NCBI GenBank assembly: GCA_945870575.1
Contig: CAMBSK010000016.1
Coordinates: 1 to 61,557, forward strand
Direction: 5' to 3'
Source of the DNA: Bordetella parapertussis
GTDB taxonomy: Bacteria; Pseudomonadota; Gammaproteobacteria; Burkholderiales; Burkholderiaceae_C
Length of the DNA: 61,557 nt
The notes beneath the pieces are model-generated. The model saw nothing but the letters and a program-made list of their open reading frames with translations, searched no databases and was not told where the DNA came from. The position numbers and the translations under genes were made by a program. Positions within the stretch are counted from its first letter, which is position 1, and each line of letters opens with the position of its first letter. Positions 22,944 to 29,896 of the stretch are shown here, one piece after another.

Positions 22944-23861
22944 ATGAATCTCTTACAGCGCGTTCACCTGGCCTGTGTGCTGCTCTTGCTGGCCGCTTGC
23001 GCCACCGTGCCGCCGCCTGCCAAACCTGTGCTGCCTGTTACCGATAACTCACCGCCGGTGGCTCCCACAACACCGCCACCGCCTAAAAAAATCCCCAAAT
23101 TGGGTTTGGCTCTGGGCGGCGGGGCGGCGCGCGGTTTTGCCCACATAGGCGTGTTGCAGGTGTTGGAAGAAGAAGGCATCAAGCCTTCGCTGGTGGTCGG
23201 TACCTCGGCCGGCAGCGTGGTTGCATCTTTTTATGCCAGCGGCAAAACCGGTCAGCAGTTGCAATGGCTGGCCGACACCATGGACGAAACCCAGTTCACC
23301 GACTGGGCCAACCCGTTCAGCGGTCGCGGCATATTGCGCGGCGAAGCGCTGGGCAAATACATCAACAGCCAGTTGAACGGCATGAAGATAGAAGACATGA
23401 AGTTGCCGCTGGGCATAGTCGCCACCGATTTGCGCACAGGCGACGGTATTTTGTTCAGGCGCGGCGATGTGGCCACGGCAGTGCGCGCTTCCAGCGCTGT
23501 GCCCTCGGTGTTTGAGCCGGTACAAATTGCGGGTAAAGATTTTGTCGACGGCGGTTTGGTGTCACCGGTGCCGGTGCGTTATGCGCGGCAAATGGGCGCG
23601 GACCTGGTGCTGGCGGTGGATATTTCCAGCCGCCCCGAGGACGCTAAAACCACGGACATGCTCAAAGTGCTTTTACAAACCTTCAGCATCATGAGCAAGA
23701 GCATCAGCCAGCTGGAATTGACCCAGGCCGATGTGGTGGTGCGACCGGCCTTGCCCGACATAGGCAGCACCGAATTTTCGGCGCGCAAGAAAAGCATAGA
23801 AGCCGGACGCGCGGCCATGAAGCAGGCGATGCCGCAGTTGCGGGCTTTGCTGGCGCAATAA
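22944..23861 (+). CDS. Patatin-like phospholipase lipoprotein
   Basis: A 305-residue lipid acyl hydrolase anchored as a lipoprotein: the lipobox LAAC ends at C19 and is followed by a Pro-rich linker (residues 22-50). The patatin domain shows the oxyanion loop GGGAARGFAHIG (58-69), nucleophile S88 in GTSAG and D202 in VDGG, the Ser-Asp dyad. The size fits the RssA/YchK-type single-domain proteins. A perfect GATCTAGATC palindrome lies just before the start. It is monocistronic, divergent from the SDR and convergent with the phasin. Confidence 0.92.
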   Translation: MNLLQRVHLACVLLLLAACATVPPPAKPVLPVTDNSPPVAPTTPPPPKKIPKLGLALGGGAARGFAHIGVLQVLEEEGIKPSLVVGTSAGSVVASFYASGKTGQQLQWLADTMDETQFTDWANPFSGRGILRGEALGKYINSQLNGMKIEDMKLPLGIVATDLRTGDGILFRRGDVATAVRASSAVPSVFEPVQIAGKDFVDGGLVSPVPVRYARQMGADLVLAVDISSRPEDAKTTDMLKVLLQTFSIMSKSISQLELTQADVVVRPALPDIGSTEFSARKKSIEAGRAAMKQAMPQLRALLAQ

Positions 23862-23985: not shown

Positions 23986-24534
23986 TTAACGCTTGCGTGA
24001 AGCAGGCTTGGCAGTCGCTGTGGCAACGGTTGATGTGGCCAGGGCTTGCATATTCGCTTCAGCAGCTTCGGTAGCTTGCTTGACCGCTTTTTGCACGCTC
24101 TCGATAGCGGTTTGGCTGGCAGACATGGCTGACTTCATCATGGCAACGGCGCTTTCAGAACCGGCGGGGGCGTTTTTGGAGACAGAGTCAACCAGACCGA
24201 AAACAGATTTTTGTGCTTCAGCAGCTTTGCCTTCGACAGCTTCGCCGAATTCCTTGCTGGTGGTGGAAGCGATTTCGTACACGTGGCGGCTGAAAGCAAC
24301 GGCTTTTTCGCTCAGGGGTTGCAGGTAACCAGCTTGCAAAGCCATCAGTTCCTGCACGTCTTTGACGTTCATGGCTGCATGGGCTTGTGACTGGGTGTCA
24401 GCAATGGCGGCTTTGACGGCAGCCATATTGAGTTCAACCATTTTTTCAACGCCTGCAAAGGCTTTTTCGGTCAGGCCGAACAGGGTTTCCATATTGGCTT
24501 TTTGGGCGGCGATCATTTGTTCTGCGGTCATCAT
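23986..24534 (-). CDS. Phasin family protein
   Basis: A 182-residue polyhydroxyalkanoate granule-associated protein. The phasin_2 pattern is clear: [20 protein letters not shown], long amphipathic helices rich in Ala, Glu and Lys without Cys, and a basic Ala/Thr-rich tail ending KPASRKR. The ATG at 24534 follows AAGGAA eight bases upstream; a longer in-frame reading to 24567 lacks a comparable site. A good promoter and a PhbF-like operator precede it, so expression is probably tied to polymer accumulation. Phasins coat granules and limit their size. No PHA synthase gene is in this window. Confidence 0.9.
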
Positions 24535-24609
24535 GGCAATTTCCTTCAAGGTGGTTAAGAGATTCACTCGGGACTGCGTGCTTTCATGTTGCGCCGCAGC
24601 ATGACTATA

Positions 24610-24780: not shown

Positions 24781-27700
24781 TCAGCGAAAGCCTTTGCTCA
24801 ACTCCAGCCAGGCATTGGCATGTAAATAACTGCTGCCGCTCAGTTGTGAGGGTTCATTGCCAATTGGCTGGCTGACACTGAAACTGGCGCGCCAATACCG
24901 GGGACCCTCCCAGGACAGACCAACGCCGGCACCGGCCAGGCGGGCCTGGTTGCTGCCTGAGGCATACGGGTTTTGATAGAGCGTGAGCCAACCGGCGTCG
25001 ACAAACACGCTGGCATACAAGTCGCCGCTGATCGTCACAGCTTTGCCGGTCGGCGTCAGCCGGTGTTTGATTTCAGCCGTCAGCAGGTGACCGGCGTCGC
25101 CCGACAACACCCCGGGCGCATAGGCGCGCACATTGTGAGCGCCGCCGAATGACATTTTTTGGGTGGTATCCAGGTTTTGATTTGCCCATTGCGCCTGCCA
25201 GTTGAGCATCAACTGTGTGTTGTCGCCCAGAGGTTGCAAGCGACCGGCGGACAGCGTCAGACGGTTGGAATGGCCTTGTGTCTCGGCGGCGGATGCATCT
25301 GTCGTTTGCGCGGTGGTGTCATTGAAACGCAGATAGCTCCACAGCAAATCCAGGTTCAGCCAGGTGCGGCCACCGCCCACGCTGTCAGCGCGTGCACCAC
25401 TGGTGCCTAAATGCCAGACTTGCAACAAGCGGTCATTGTTGGTGCTGCTTGCCTCTTCAACATCTTGCAGCGCAATCCGGTCGTACTGAGTACGCCAGTT
25501 CCACTGGGTTTGCCGGTTGTTAAACAACAATTGATCGGCCCAGACACTGTTTTGCCTGGCATTGCCGTAAGCATCCAGCGACGCCGCACTGCCGCCTAAT
25601 TTGTATTTCAAGTAGGCACTGGTAGCGCCGACTCGCCATCCGTCTTGCCTCATTGGCATTTCATAAGACCAACGGCCATATTGCATATTTCCCGAGCTGG
25701 CGAGCAGGTTCAAGTCCAGGCTGTCACCGTTGCTCAGCAACTGTGTATGTTGCTGGCGCAGGCTGGTTTGCGTTTCTCCGGTGTAGCTGCTGCCATGGTT
25801 ATTGACGCTGAATTCAGCGTTCCAGGCGTGGTTCAGACCGGCGGGCAATTCCGCATTTTTTTCGACAGTGCGGCCGCCGGGTAGCTTATCGCTGATAGAG
25901 GGTAGCGTCAGCTGCGATTGTTTTTGTGCTGTCACCTGGTCAGCGTTCGCCGAGGCATAGCCGAGATAGAACTGAGTGCTGGCGGTGTTGCCTGATGTGT
26001 TGACGTTTGTTGAGTCGCAGGTATTGCTGTGCCCGGATATCTGGGTGTCACTTGCATGGGTTTGTTCCTCTTGCGAATCTGTATTGATCGCTGTGTAAGT
26101 GGTAACCGACTGGTTGTTGCTGTCATCGCACTTATCTGAAGCCGCAGAACTGATCTCGGTATTGGTGTTGCTGACGGTTTCATTGGCAGGGGCGCTGGTT
26201 GTATCGGATTCGATAACTGGAGTCAGTAAGGTGACGGTGGCAGTTGTTGAGTTGCCTACCGCAGTTGCAGTAACGGTAGTTGAAGTGGTCGTGGATGCAC
26301 TACCGGAAACAGTTGATGCCGTGGAAGTTGGTGCGGCAGAAGTTGCGCTCGATGAATTGGCGCTTGCTGGTGCTATGCCACTGGAAGTTGAGGCTGTTGA
26401 AGTTGTTGCTGTGGAAGTGGGAGTTGTGGAAGTTGAAGCGGTGGAGGAGATGTCGGTGTTGGTGATACTGGGTACAGCGGTGGTTGAAGAGCTGGCGCTG
26501 CTGGTCACCGTCACGCTGTTGGTGCTGAATGAATAGCTGATCTGGTAACCCAGTTGATCTGAGTAGAAACCGCTTGCTACTACCGAATGTGCACCGACAT
26601 CTGCGCCGTCCAGCGCAAAACTGATGCTGCCTGAAAAAGTTTTGCTTAAGCTGCCCGGGTCGGTGTAGCTGGCTGCGGTTGTGGTGGTGGTGCCGTCATA
26701 CACCTTGGTGCCGTAGGCGTAGGCGCTGATGGTCAGCGGCGTCATGAAGGCGCGCAGCAGCGGTTCGGTGTAGCTGCTGTAAATGATCCAAGGCGTAGTG
26801 AAATCCCAGTTACTGAAATTACTGACAAGCTTCATTTCCGCAGGGATCAGGCCTGTGAAATCGTCGTTACCACTGGTCGCTGAGTTGATGCCAGCACCGC
26901 TGCTTTGCCCGCTAGTTTGGGTGTTCCATACGCTGTCGGTGACGCTGCCAATCGCCATCAAATTGCCAATCAACCCGCCGGTATAGCCCGAGGTGCCGGA
27001 GACCGACCCTGAGGCATAGCTGTTGACCACGCTGCCGTAATTGCGCCCGATCAGGCCACCGGCCGGGATATCTGTGGTTGCGGTCACTGTGGCCGTGGAA
27101 TAGCTGTTGGTGATGGTGCCGGTGTCTCCGTTATCGCCTGCCAGGCCGCCGACAAAACCCGCCTGGCTGGTGATGCTGCCTGTGGTGAAACTGTTTTTGA
27201 TGCTGCCGTAATTGCGCCCGACCAGACCGCCGCTGCTGTTGGTGGTGATGGCCATGTTCACCATGCCGGTGTCTCTGAGCACCGCGTCGCTGCTGAGTAC
27301 GGCAAACAATCCGCTCACCCCTACAAGCGGGCGGTACAGGTATAGGTCTGATATCACATGGCCCAGACCGGCAAATGTGCCGCTGTAGTAGTCGGCAGAA
27401 GTGGTGTTGTTACCGATTTTAGTGAAGCCTTTGACATAGGTGCTGGTCGACCAGGAGGAGGTGCCGCTGGCATCAATGTCTGCGCCGAGTGCATAGTTGG
27501 CCGTTAAATCTCCGTTCATACCTTGCAGATCGCTGGCGGTGGTGCTGCCTGAGCTGCCCAGGCCGGTGATCACTTGGTAGCTTTTCAGGTTGGTCGTGTC
27601 GCTGCCCAATTGTGTGTATAGATTGGTTCCAGCCGCCAATGTGACCGGGGCGTTGACGTAATAGTCCGAGACGACTCCGCTGATACTGCCGCTGGTACTG

Positions 27701-28752
27701 CCTTGTCCGTACATCAGTTTCAGTTTGCCGCTGCTGTTGCTGGATGTGATGGGCGCGTTGATGTAAATATCTTTGTAAGCGCTTAAAGTCAGTAGAGTGG
27801 CCGCGCTCCAACTGACATCTGAGTTCACATAAATATTGCCCGAATCGCTGCCGCTGGTGTCATCGGTGGCAATGATTACATTGGTACTGTCTAGACTGGT
27901 GCTTAACGTGGTCGCCCCAATTCCGCTGCTGGTGGACGCACTGGAGCCGCTGCTGATGGTGAAGTCGGTCGGGTCTATCAGCCACTCGCCGCTGCTGCCG
28001 TCAGCAGCCCGGGCGTAAACCCTGGCTGTATCTGCAATGCGCACGACAGCCGCACTGGTTTCAATGAAACCGGGGGTGTTGCTGACCGCGCTTGACGTGT
28101 CCAGCCTGCCGCTGAGCGACACGCTGCCGTTTTGCTTGTCGCCCAATAACAAAATGCGTCCGCCTGGTGATGTGATGTTGCCCGGGTTGCTGACATTGCC
28201 GGCCATCAAAGCGGCATAACCGCCTTCAGCGGTTTGTATGCGGCCCTCATTGACGACGGATGCCTTGTCATTGCCCGCCGACACCGCGCCTTGAAGCTGG
28301 GCTGGTTTGGTGTTGTCCGCCAGGTTCAGGGTGGACGCGACCAAGCCGCCCACATTGACTTGCGCGCCCGGGCCGAAATACACACCGGCCGGGTTGATCA
28401 GCCACACCTGGCCGTTGGCGCTAAGTTTTCCCAGGATGCGCGAACCGTTAGGGTCACTGATTCGGTTGATGGCCACAGAGGAGGCGCCGGGTTGAACAAA
28501 TTTGACAATCTCAGTCGGGCCAACATTGAACTGTTGCCAATTCAGCGTGGCTTTGTTGCTGGTTTGTGTGACGGTGGTGACGCTTTGCCCGCCTTGGCTT
28601 GACTGTATGACAACGGCCTGACCGCTGACCACTTGAGCACCTTGAGGCCCAGCGTGAGCCAGAACAGGGCAGAGCAACAGCGACACCCAGCAACTCTGGC
28701 TCACTTTCTTCGTTTTATAGTGTGATAAAGCATTCATTTTCGGATTCATCAA
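24781..28752 (-). CDS. TpsA-like haemagglutinin fused to a TpsB (ShlB/FhaC)-type outer-membrane barrel
   Basis: A 1323-residue exported protein. Residues 17-34 form the signal peptide (VSLLLCPVLAHA). About 35-250 is the TPS/haemagglutination N-terminal domain, with NWQQFNVGPTEIVKFVQP, NRISDPNGSRILGKL and WLINPAGVYFGPGAQVNVGG. GLUG-type repeats lie near 505-600 (GGLVGRNYGSIKNSF, GGLIGRNYGSVVNSY). A YDG/MBG-like module follows at 675-750 (KVYDGTTTTTAASYTDPG), then a Ser/Thr linker (750-945). Residues 970-1323 match the 16-strand barrel of ShlB/FhaC transporters: NMQYGRWSYEMPM, RVGATSAYLKYKLGG, and SFGGAHNVRAYAPGVLSGD, which carries the VRxY tip motif. No POTRA domain is visible. TpsA and TpsB are normally separate proteins, so this may secrete its own passenger. 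AT-rich DNA lies upstream. Confidence 0.85.
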   Translation of the reverse strand: MMNPKMNALSHYKTKKVSQSCWVSLLLCPVLAHAGPQGAQVVSGQAVVIQSSQGGQSVTTVTQTSNKATLNWQQFNVGPTEIVKFVQPGASSVAINRISDPNGSRILGKLSANGQVWLINPAGVYFGPGAQVNVGGLVASTLNLADNTKPAQLQGAVSAGNDKASVVNEGRIQTAEGGYAALMAGNVSNPGNITSPGGRILLLGDKQNGSVSLSGRLDTSSAVSNTPGFIETSAAVVRIADTARVYARAADGSSGEWLIDPTDFTISSGSSASTSSGIGATTLSTSLDSTNVIIATDDTSGSDSGNIYVNSDVSWSAATLLTLSAYKDIYINAPITSSNSSGKLKLMYGQGSTSGSISGVVSDYYVNAPVTLAAGTNLYTQLGSDTTNLKSYQVITGLGSSGSTTASDLQGMNGDLTANYALGADIDASGTSSWSTSTYVKGFTKIGNNTTSADYYSGTFAGLGHVISDLYLYRPLVGVSGLFAVLSSDAVLRDTGMVNMAITTNSSGGLVGRNYGSIKNSFTTGSITSQAGFVGGLAGDNGDTGTITNSYSTATVTATTDIPAGGLIGRNYGSVVNSYASGSVSGTSGYTGGLIGNLMAIGSVTDSVWNTQTSGQSSGAGINSATSGNDDFTGLIPAEMKLVSNFSNWDFTTPWIIYSSYTEPLLRAFMTPLTISAYAYGTKVYDGTTTTTAASYTDPGSLSKTFSGSISFALDGADVGAHSVVASGFYSDQLGYQISYSFSTNSVTVTSSASSSTTAVPSITNTDISSTASTSTTPTSTATTSTASTSSGIAPASANSSSATSAAPTSTASTVSGSASTTTSTTVTATAVGNSTTATVTLLTPVIESDTTSAPANETVSNTNTEISSAASDKCDDSNNQSVTTYTAINTDSQEEQTHASDTQISGHSNTCDSTNVNTSGNTASTQFYLGYASANADQVTAQKQSQLTLPSISDKLPGGRTVEKNAELPAGLNHAWNAEFSVNNHGSSYTGETQTSLRQQHTQLLSNGDSLDLNLLASSGNMQYGRWSYEMPMRQDGWRVGATSAYLKYKLGGSAASLDAYGNARQNSVWADQLLFNNRQTQWNWRTQYDRIALQDVEEASSTNNDRLLQVWHLGTSGARADSVGGGRTWLNLDLLWSYLRFNDTTAQTTDASAAETQGHSNRLTLSAGRLQPLGDNTQLMLNWQAQWANQNLDTTQKMSFGGAHNVRAYAPGVLSGDAGHLLTAEIKHRLTPTGKAVTISGDLYASVFVDAGWLTLYQNPYASGSNQARLAGAGVGLSWEGPRYWRASFSVSQPIGNEPSQLSGSSYLHANAWLELSKGFR

Positions 28753-28966
28753 AATCTATAATTAATAAATTTCAATAAATAAATGTTAATAACAATTAAA
28801 TCAATAAATTCAATAATTAATTATTAAATACAATTATGTTGTTGTTTAACATCAAAAATACACCTTTAATAGCACACATTTTTTCCGATAATTGAAAAAA
28901 GTTGGTATTTCAAGCCATTCACAGCAGTTTTTTTCGGCTGGTCGTGGTCGTCACCAATAATCCGGG
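28753..28966. promoter_or_regulatory. AT-rich divergent intergenic region
   Basis: This 214-base stretch is far richer in A and T than its surroundings, with repeated AATTAATAAAT-like words from 28755 to 28845. It separates the TpsA/TpsB-like gene (minus) from the HDAC-like gene (plus). Such DNA is typical of xenogeneic-silencer binding upstream of acquired surface-protein genes. I could not choose a single promoter because many TATAAT-like words occur. Confidence 0.4.
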
Positions 28967-29896
28967 ATGCACATTTACTTTGCCGCTACACATATTCAAA
29001 CGCTGCCCGCCGGGCACCGTTTCCCTATGGGCAAATACGAGTTGCTGAGAAAGCGGCTGGTGGCTGAGTTGCCGCAATTGCAATTGGCACTGGCTGATGC
29101 GGCCAGCGACGGCGAACTGGCACTCGTGCACACGCCTGACTACATAGAAGCAGTCATGCAGGGCGGCTTGAGCGAGGCAGCCCAGCGCGAAATCGGCTTT
29201 CCCTGGTCAGAGGGCATGGTCGAGCGGGCGCGACGGTCTGTGGGCGCCACACTCAGCGCGGCGCGTACCGCCATGAAAGTAGGCGTGGCCGCCAACCTGG
29301 CAGGCGGCACCCATCATGCTTACGCCGACAAGGGCAGCGGTTTTTGTGTGTTCAATGACGTGGCCGTGGCAGCGCGTTTGCTACAAGCCGAAACCGGGCG
29401 GGTGCGGCGCAGGCAATTGCAAGTGGCGGTGATCGACTTGGATGTGCACCAGGGCAATGGCACGGCGCATATTTTTCGGGATGACCCGACGGTGTTCACG
29501 TTTTCCATGCACGGTGCCAAAAATTTCCCGTTCCGCAAGGAAAACAGCGATTTAGACATTGAATTGCCCGACGGCTGCGGCGACGATGACTACCTGGCGC
29601 AGTTGCAATCCGGTTTGCAGCAACTGCAAGCGCTTTGTCAGCCTGAGTTGATTTTTTACCTGGCGGGAGCCGATCCGCACGAAGGCGACCGGCTAGGTCG
29701 CTTGCAACTGAGCTTTGCGGGGCTGCAAATGCGCGACCGCATGGTGCTGCAATGGGCCGGTAAAAGGCGCATTCCTTTGGCGATGGTCATGGCCGGCGGC
29801 TACGGCAAAGACGTGGCAGACACGGTGCAGGTGCAAATAAATACATTCACGCTGGCTTATGAGGTCTGGCAACACTGGCAAAATCAGCAGCCATGA
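28967..29896 (+). CDS. Histone-deacetylase-family amidohydrolase
   Basis: A 309-residue Zn-dependent deacetylase of the HDAC/AcuC/APAH superfamily, bacterial class IV-like. Motifs: LPAGHRFPMGKYELL (17-31), GGTHHAYADKGSGFCVFND with the tandem histidines, VIDLDVHQGNGTAHIF with the metal-binding Asp and His, and YLAGADPHEGDRLG with a further metal Asp. All catalytic residues are kept. Bacterial members deacetylate polyamines, acetoin-related enzymes or acetyl-lysine; the substrate here is unknown. The ATG at 28967 matches the family's usual N-terminus. It opens an eight-gene operon and overlaps the thioesterase gene by four bases. Confidence 0.9.
   Translation: MHIYFAATHIQTLPAGHRFPMGKYELLRKRLVAELPQLQLALADAASDGELALVHTPDYIEAVMQGGLSEAAQREIGFPWSEGMVERARRSVGATLSAARTAMKVGVAANLAGGTHHAYADKGSGFCVFNDVAVAARLLQAETGRVRRRQLQVAVIDLDVHQGNGTAHIFRDDPTVFTFSMHGAKNFPFRKENSDLDIELPDGCGDDDYLAQLQSGLQQLQALCQPELIFYLAGADPHEGDRLGRLQLSFAGLQMRDRMVLQWAGKRRIPLAMVMAGGYGKDVADTVQVQINTFTLAYEVWQHWQNQQP

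Follow-up and report, generated by a model that had tools for sequence, protein, structure and literature searches.

Can a two-partner secretion (TPS) passenger and the channel that exports it work as one chain? The question is raised by a minus-strand gene in contig CAMBSK010000016.1, the whole 61,557 nucleotides of which were analysed (the window). A freshwater bacterium appears to have merged an exported, adhesin-like protein of the TpsA kind and a membrane channel of the TpsB kind into a single polypeptide, with loss of those parts of the channel that recognise the cargo. The first-pass annotation described one uninterrupted gene leading from a signal peptide and a TPS domain through GLUG repeats and a Ser/Thr linker to a ShlB/FhaC barrel with a VRxY motif, and both Pfam and the sequence bear this out. 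The open frame of 1323 codons is intact on the minus strand, and the plus-strand reading of the same stretch is full of stops. The parts of the gene are as follows.

24781..28749, minus strand: fused TpsA-TpsB gene, ATG to stop, 1322 aa; the start options are TTG 28752, ATG 28749 (used here) and ATG 28737
28651..28749, minus strand: signal peptide, residues 2-34 (...LLLCPVLAHA/GPQG), hydropathy peak at residues 21-32, cleavage point placed by eye
28006..28656, minus strand: TPS domain, residues 33-249 (Pfam PF05860, E 6e-27)
28165..28170, minus strand: position of the 76-77 extra residues of two-partner TpsAs, between residues 195 and 196
26743..28005, minus strand: β-solenoid passenger with GLUG repeats, residues 250-670
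26575..26739, minus strand: weak YDG-like module, residues 672-726 (PF18657, E 0.0077)
25837..26502, minus strand: Ser/Thr-rich, fast-evolving linker without POTRA, residues 751-972
25894..25935, minus strand: conserved pre-barrel motif, residues 940-953
24784..25836, minus strand: ShlB/FhaC-type barrel, residues 973-1323
25120..25131, minus strand: L6 tip motif VRAY, residues 1208-1211, with the lid-lock arginine R1209
24991..25005, minus strand: strand-13 motif FVDAG, with the lid-lock acid

The chain is thus built of two-partner parts, as the annotation had it, and its barrel is complete. The ShlB match spans residues 975-1280 and profile positions 13-310 of 311 (Pfam, E 4.6e-15), and this coverage together with homology to TpsB along the whole barrel indicates a 16-strand Omp85-type fold. 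VRAY and FVDAG stand for the TpsB motifs (V/I)RG(Y/F) and (F/G)xDxG, which form part of the lid lock described in PMC4490367. At the other end the TPS domain reads NPAG (residue 120) instead of NPNG, and the haemagglutinin N-terminal domain is the sole match in an NCBIfam scan. The GLUG repeats fall in three stretches (E 2.5e-10). A YDG match does follow them, in keeping with the proposed YDG/MBG-like module, but it is weak and does not reach the family cut-off. By sequence the closest solved structures are the TPS domains of EtpA, HMW1 and HxuA, with the CdiB barrel as a weak match (E 0.00037). In the structure models the passenger is predicted as a β-helix (mean predicted local distance difference test score, pLDDT, 85.8) and the barrel aligns best with CdiB and FhaC. 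Custom profiles found no second frame with such a barrel or TPS core in the window, the only other barrel match being at chance level (E 0.014).

As judged from the encoded sequences, one lineage has a TpsA passenger that leads, by way of a variable linker, directly into strand 1 of a TpsB barrel. When 20 fused C-termini (14 after redundancy filtering) were compared profile to profile with 42 TpsBs, cut to keep at most about 240 residues before the barrel, the two aligned over 343 columns (E 2.3e-60) from window residue 973, which corresponds to strand 1. No segment of the fused protein is homologous in this alignment to the TpsB signal peptide, plug helix or POTRAs, no second signal-like stretch precedes the barrel, and POTRA families are absent from its Pfam listing up to E 1. 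A POTRA hidden in the linker, for which the annotation had advised a search, was not found: TpsB homology starts at strand 1, and in two fused relatives merely 43 and 51 residues separate the passenger from the pre-barrel motif. The linker, in which Ser and Thr make up 48% of residues 752-935, is 43 to 238 residues long across 12 measured relatives. The suggestion that it replaces the POTRAs is unsupported because its length varies so widely and its sequence is near saturation. The pre-barrel motif, with Q945 and P951 invariant in alignment A2, might, speculatively, be a pore-spanning or plug segment. Against CdiB/FhaC chains, the N-terminal part of the model, which is of low confidence, gives three alignments that start at model residue 12-13.

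The same architecture recurs elsewhere. A search of about 5.8 billion proteins returned 2631 matches, and among the best 120 of these GLUG and ShlB lie on one chain in 15 protein clusters, among them P0001 (39 members) and P0002 (23); the other 105 carry no ShlB. Thirteen of the 15 also have the TPS domain, the exceptions being P0014, which is without its start, and P0015, which has a gap in that domain. Within its first 250 residues P0015 shows this further TPS-domain gap, yet its barrel is 97% identical to that of P0010. Searches with the barrel only yielded no additional fusions among proteins. Scanning of genome contigs with two short patterns gave six loci, all in metagenome-assembled genomes (MAGs) labelled Comamonadaceae or Burkholderiales: L001, L003 and L004 hold the fusion intact, L002 and L005 hold it in shortened form, and L006 is a TpsB on its own. 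Four of the genomes, G001 (L001), G003 (L003), G004 (L004) and G005 (L005), are assigned to one genus. This recurrence of the layout in other metagenome and MAG contigs speaks against a missed stop. An assembly or sequencing artefact that joins two genes is scarcely credible: all five loci with shared synteny are from MAGs and no isolate is among the six found, but the layout is seen in 15 protein clusters, two of them with 39 and 23 members, and in MAGs of several accession series.

The nearest relatives of both halves, so far as the trees of these sequences show, are the same tpsA-first operons. In a barrel tree of 57 rows, from which fragments, duplicates, low-coverage rows and P0013 were left out, 16 fused rows lie on one side of a branch (100/100) and the TpsBs of L009 (genome G004) and L012 (G005) adjoin them at 100/99. 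A passenger tree of 130 rows, built by a quick method, places 18 fused rows on one side of a branch (SH-like approximate likelihood ratio test, SH-aLRT, 99) inside a 26-row set (SH-aLRT 95) that also includes P0032, P0035, P0038, P0039, P0045, P0084, P0074 and the TpsA of L012; both trees were midpoint-rooted. The TpsA of L009 is 99.8% identical to P0032 over all 819 residues of it on the contig, and its next matches are P0035, P0038, P0039, P0045 and P0084 (58-74% identity). In both sister operons tpsA precedes tpsB, so that the fusion could have arisen by one deletion that removed everything between the tpsA end and strand 1 of tpsB, and a single fusion event from such an operon is the probable origin. 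Gene order varies in more distant kin, with tpsA first in L058 and L059, convergent genes in L060 and tpsB first in L062. In G004 the fusion (L004) coexists with the two-gene pair (L009). At L012:4413-8417 the TpsA is split into two frames ahead of an intact TpsB. At another locus, L046:769-3813, a TpsB frame (1014 aa) with POTRA runs past its barrel into a Porin_1 match (E 7e-7), possibly a TpsB-porin fusion.

Fusion was accompanied by a change in the TPS domain itself. The 76-77 residues missing from all nine aligned fused TPS domains are present in all 14 aligned two-partner TpsAs. A profile of this block has no significant match in the 13 fused proteins whose TPS core is intact (best E 0.3), and at E < 0.001 it matches 104 of the 105 non-fused proteins among the best 120, or 94 of 95 without the ten that helped to build it; the lone exception, P0111, has by eye a divergent form of the block. 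The block was likewise found in 8/8 TpsAs of the genome loci scanned, three of which contributed to the profile; the TpsA of L009 is cut by the contig end. From residue numbers that we matched to the EtpA paper (PMC10284417), the block would contain the extra-helical hairpin; an extra-helical sheet is called conserved among TpsA proteins in PMC5422565. We infer that the lost block serves POTRA recognition. The proposal that the TPS domain acts in cis needs changing: the domain has lost a block that relatives keep, so a role as folding seed is more likely for what is left than one as POTRA ligand.

Both halves of the fused protein are under purifying selection, as far as rough coding-sequence estimates go, and the linker is little constrained. 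The ratio of nonsynonymous to synonymous substitution rates (dN/dS, Nei-Gojobori) was obtained for pairs among the fusion loci. TPS domain and passenger together give 0.12-0.19 and the barrel 0.17-0.32 in the five pairs without L002; the linker is saturated in four of these pairs and at 0.36 in one. The two pairs with L002 give 0.17 and 0.32 for the short remaining passenger, 0.19 and 0.22 for the barrel, and 0.64 and 0.74 for the linker.

The genomic site is conserved, and the following genes flank the fusion in 5/5 loci.

23986..24567, minus strand: phasin (PF09361), on one side
28967..29896, plus strand: histone-deacetylase-family (HDAC) gene (PF00850), divergent, on the other side

The HDAC gene was sought in 61 genomes of the genus and matched in 56, the best 30 of which were made into loci. 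Among these 30, four belong to fusion genomes already described, in 25 the HDAC and phasin genes are adjacent with no gene between them, and one (L077) ends at a contig end. On the simplest reading the fusion gene was added to a conserved HDAC-phasin block. Upstream of the gene, positions 28750-28966 of the window have 26% G+C against 56% for the window, possibly regulatory or transferred DNA. Two genes off, at 22944-23861, lies a separate patatin-family gene, a conserved neighbour that recalls the patatin passenger of PlpD but is not fused. At two of the five loci the gene is reduced. L002 (7218-9167) has lost 593 residues in frame, as measured on L003, from the TPS domain and GLUG region, and retains signal peptide, linker and barrel. 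At L005 (8010-8888) the rear 292 residues of the barrel are all that remains between the HDAC and phasin genes. The L002 barrel looks by eye like a mosaic of two fused types, which could reflect strain variation or a MAG chimera.

We consider it probable that this gene encodes a 'one-partner' derivative of two-partner secretion, in which tethering has replaced recognition of the TPS domain by POTRAs and the passenger is predicted to exit through its own barrel. The fused chain would cross the inner membrane by Sec, and its C-terminal barrel would be assembled by the β-barrel assembly machinery (BAM). As passenger and barrel are tethered, the TPS-POTRA handshake would be unneeded; PMC5422565 notes that recruitment does not require a POTRA if passenger and barrel belong to a single chain. 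The unfolded passenger might then go through the barrel, or through a BAM-barrel intermediate as in classical autotransporters, and fold outside into a β-helix with the shortened TPS domain as its seed. The linker or the pre-barrel motif would stay in the pore and anchor the adhesin-like solenoid to the cell.

Several points weigh against this model. Export in cis, which we favour, is a prediction from sequence, and in PlpD, a passenger-Omp85 fusion that has been characterised, the passenger remains periplasmic (PMC11116518). The passenger is mostly lost in L002, and passenger and barrel front are lost in L005, so in two of the five syntenic loci either the system is dispensable or the MAGs are flawed. 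Branching order within the 26-row passenger set lacks resolution, which leaves the exact sister of the fused passengers unsettled, and the dN/dS values are rough because synonymous distances are large, mostly > 1. The structure model, proposed earlier as a check, does give a barrel, of moderate confidence (pLDDT 61.9) and with 15 strands plus a last low-confidence element drawn as a helix.

The main rival is modelled on PlpD: the barrel would be a mere outer-membrane anchor and the TPS/GLUG passenger would stay periplasmic. The patatin domain of PlpD proved periplasmic though it was once called the archetype of type Vd secretion (PMC11116518), and the fused protein has no POTRA left to handle a substrate. 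However, the PlpD passenger is globular and lies on its POTRA, whereas the fused passenger is modelled as a β-helix, has no POTRA to pack on and is akin to the TpsAs of two-gene operons; we regard periplasmic retention as unlikely, if a serious contender. Less likely again is export in trans, in which a separate POTRA-bearing TpsB in that cell would recognise the TPS domain while the fused barrel did no more than anchor the end. Such TpsBs are encoded in three genomes with the fusion or its remnant (G001, G004, G005). They were not found by POTRA_2 in G002 and G003, MAGs that may be incomplete, and the fused TPS domain is without the 77-residue block that relatives with separate TpsBs keep. 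That the gene is decaying, with fusion and domain loss as steps of degeneration, would fit the 593-residue and barrel-remnant losses of L002 and L005 and the TPS gap of P0015, but full-length open frames persist down to 39-40% barrel identity and selection acts on both halves, which makes decay very improbable.

The fusion differs from known systems in several respects. The definitions in PMC5422565, PMC8151025 and PMC6555100 make type Vb a pair of proteins and type Vd a passenger-POTRA-barrel chain. With the type Vb systems FHA/FhaC, HMW1A/HMW1B and CdiA/CdiB the fusion shares the TPS domain, a β-helical passenger, a TpsB barrel with L6 VRxY, and kinship of both halves to tpsA-tpsB operons. 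Unlike them it is one chain rather than separate passenger and transporter, lacks the two POTRAs of the transporter and any recognisable plug helix or second signal-like stretch, and has a TPS domain 77 residues shorter; its pre-barrel motif, unrelated to plug helix H1, could plug the pore instead. Like the type Vd or PL-Omp85 proteins PlpD and FplA it joins an N-terminal domain to a C-terminal Omp85 barrel, but PlpD has a POTRA and a globular, reportedly periplasmic patatin domain (PMC11116518) where the fusion has no POTRA and a TPS/GLUG β-helix. Type Va autotransporters share the order of β-helical passenger, linker and C-terminal barrel, although theirs are 12-strand barrels (PMC5422565) and this one is of the TpsB type. 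The Omp85 'noNterm' subfamily likewise has an Omp85-type barrel without POTRA, but no N-terminal extension (PMC4104836), where the fusion has some 970 residues of passenger and linker ahead of a barrel of the TpsB type. Marine TPS loci marked 'Lacks POTRA' (PMC2702493) are TPS systems without a Pfam POTRA match; by its description that survey required adjacent frames, so these are not fusions. Omp85 proteins are said in PMC11116518 to have at least one POTRA, a statement that neither the fusion nor the 'noNterm' proteins fit; lack of a POTRA is in itself no novelty, because PMC2702493 and PMC4104836 list such cases. Comparable by description is Tery_3487 of Trichodesmium erythraeum, with two-partner-type passenger and transporter on one chain, which PMC3297439 cites as a TPS gene fusion with a β-helical passenger and leaves uncharacterised where it is mentioned. 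The annotation named no characterised example; a fusion of this broad kind had been mentioned in print, and a characterised POTRA-less TPS fusion was not found in searches of an open-access library, subscription papers not being covered.

Whether the fusion represents a new type V sub-type, in which a TpsB barrel would export its own tethered β-helical passenger without POTRA and the POTRAs and the lost block would serve recognition and not translocation, we judge to be evenly balanced. Mutation can hardly tell apart the two possible roles of the TpsB POTRAs, substrate recruitment and assistance with passage through the pore, and the fusion offers a natural test of which parts of the two-partner export machine are needed: one lineage lacks POTRAs, a recognisable plug helix and 77 TPS residues, selection maintains both of its halves, and one of the fusion genomes still has a two-gene relative. 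If the passenger is not exported, this would be another case after PlpD of an Omp85 barrel put to different use. If it is exported, POTRAs would be dispensable for translocation of a tethered substrate, and the lost TPS block would become a candidate recognition surface.

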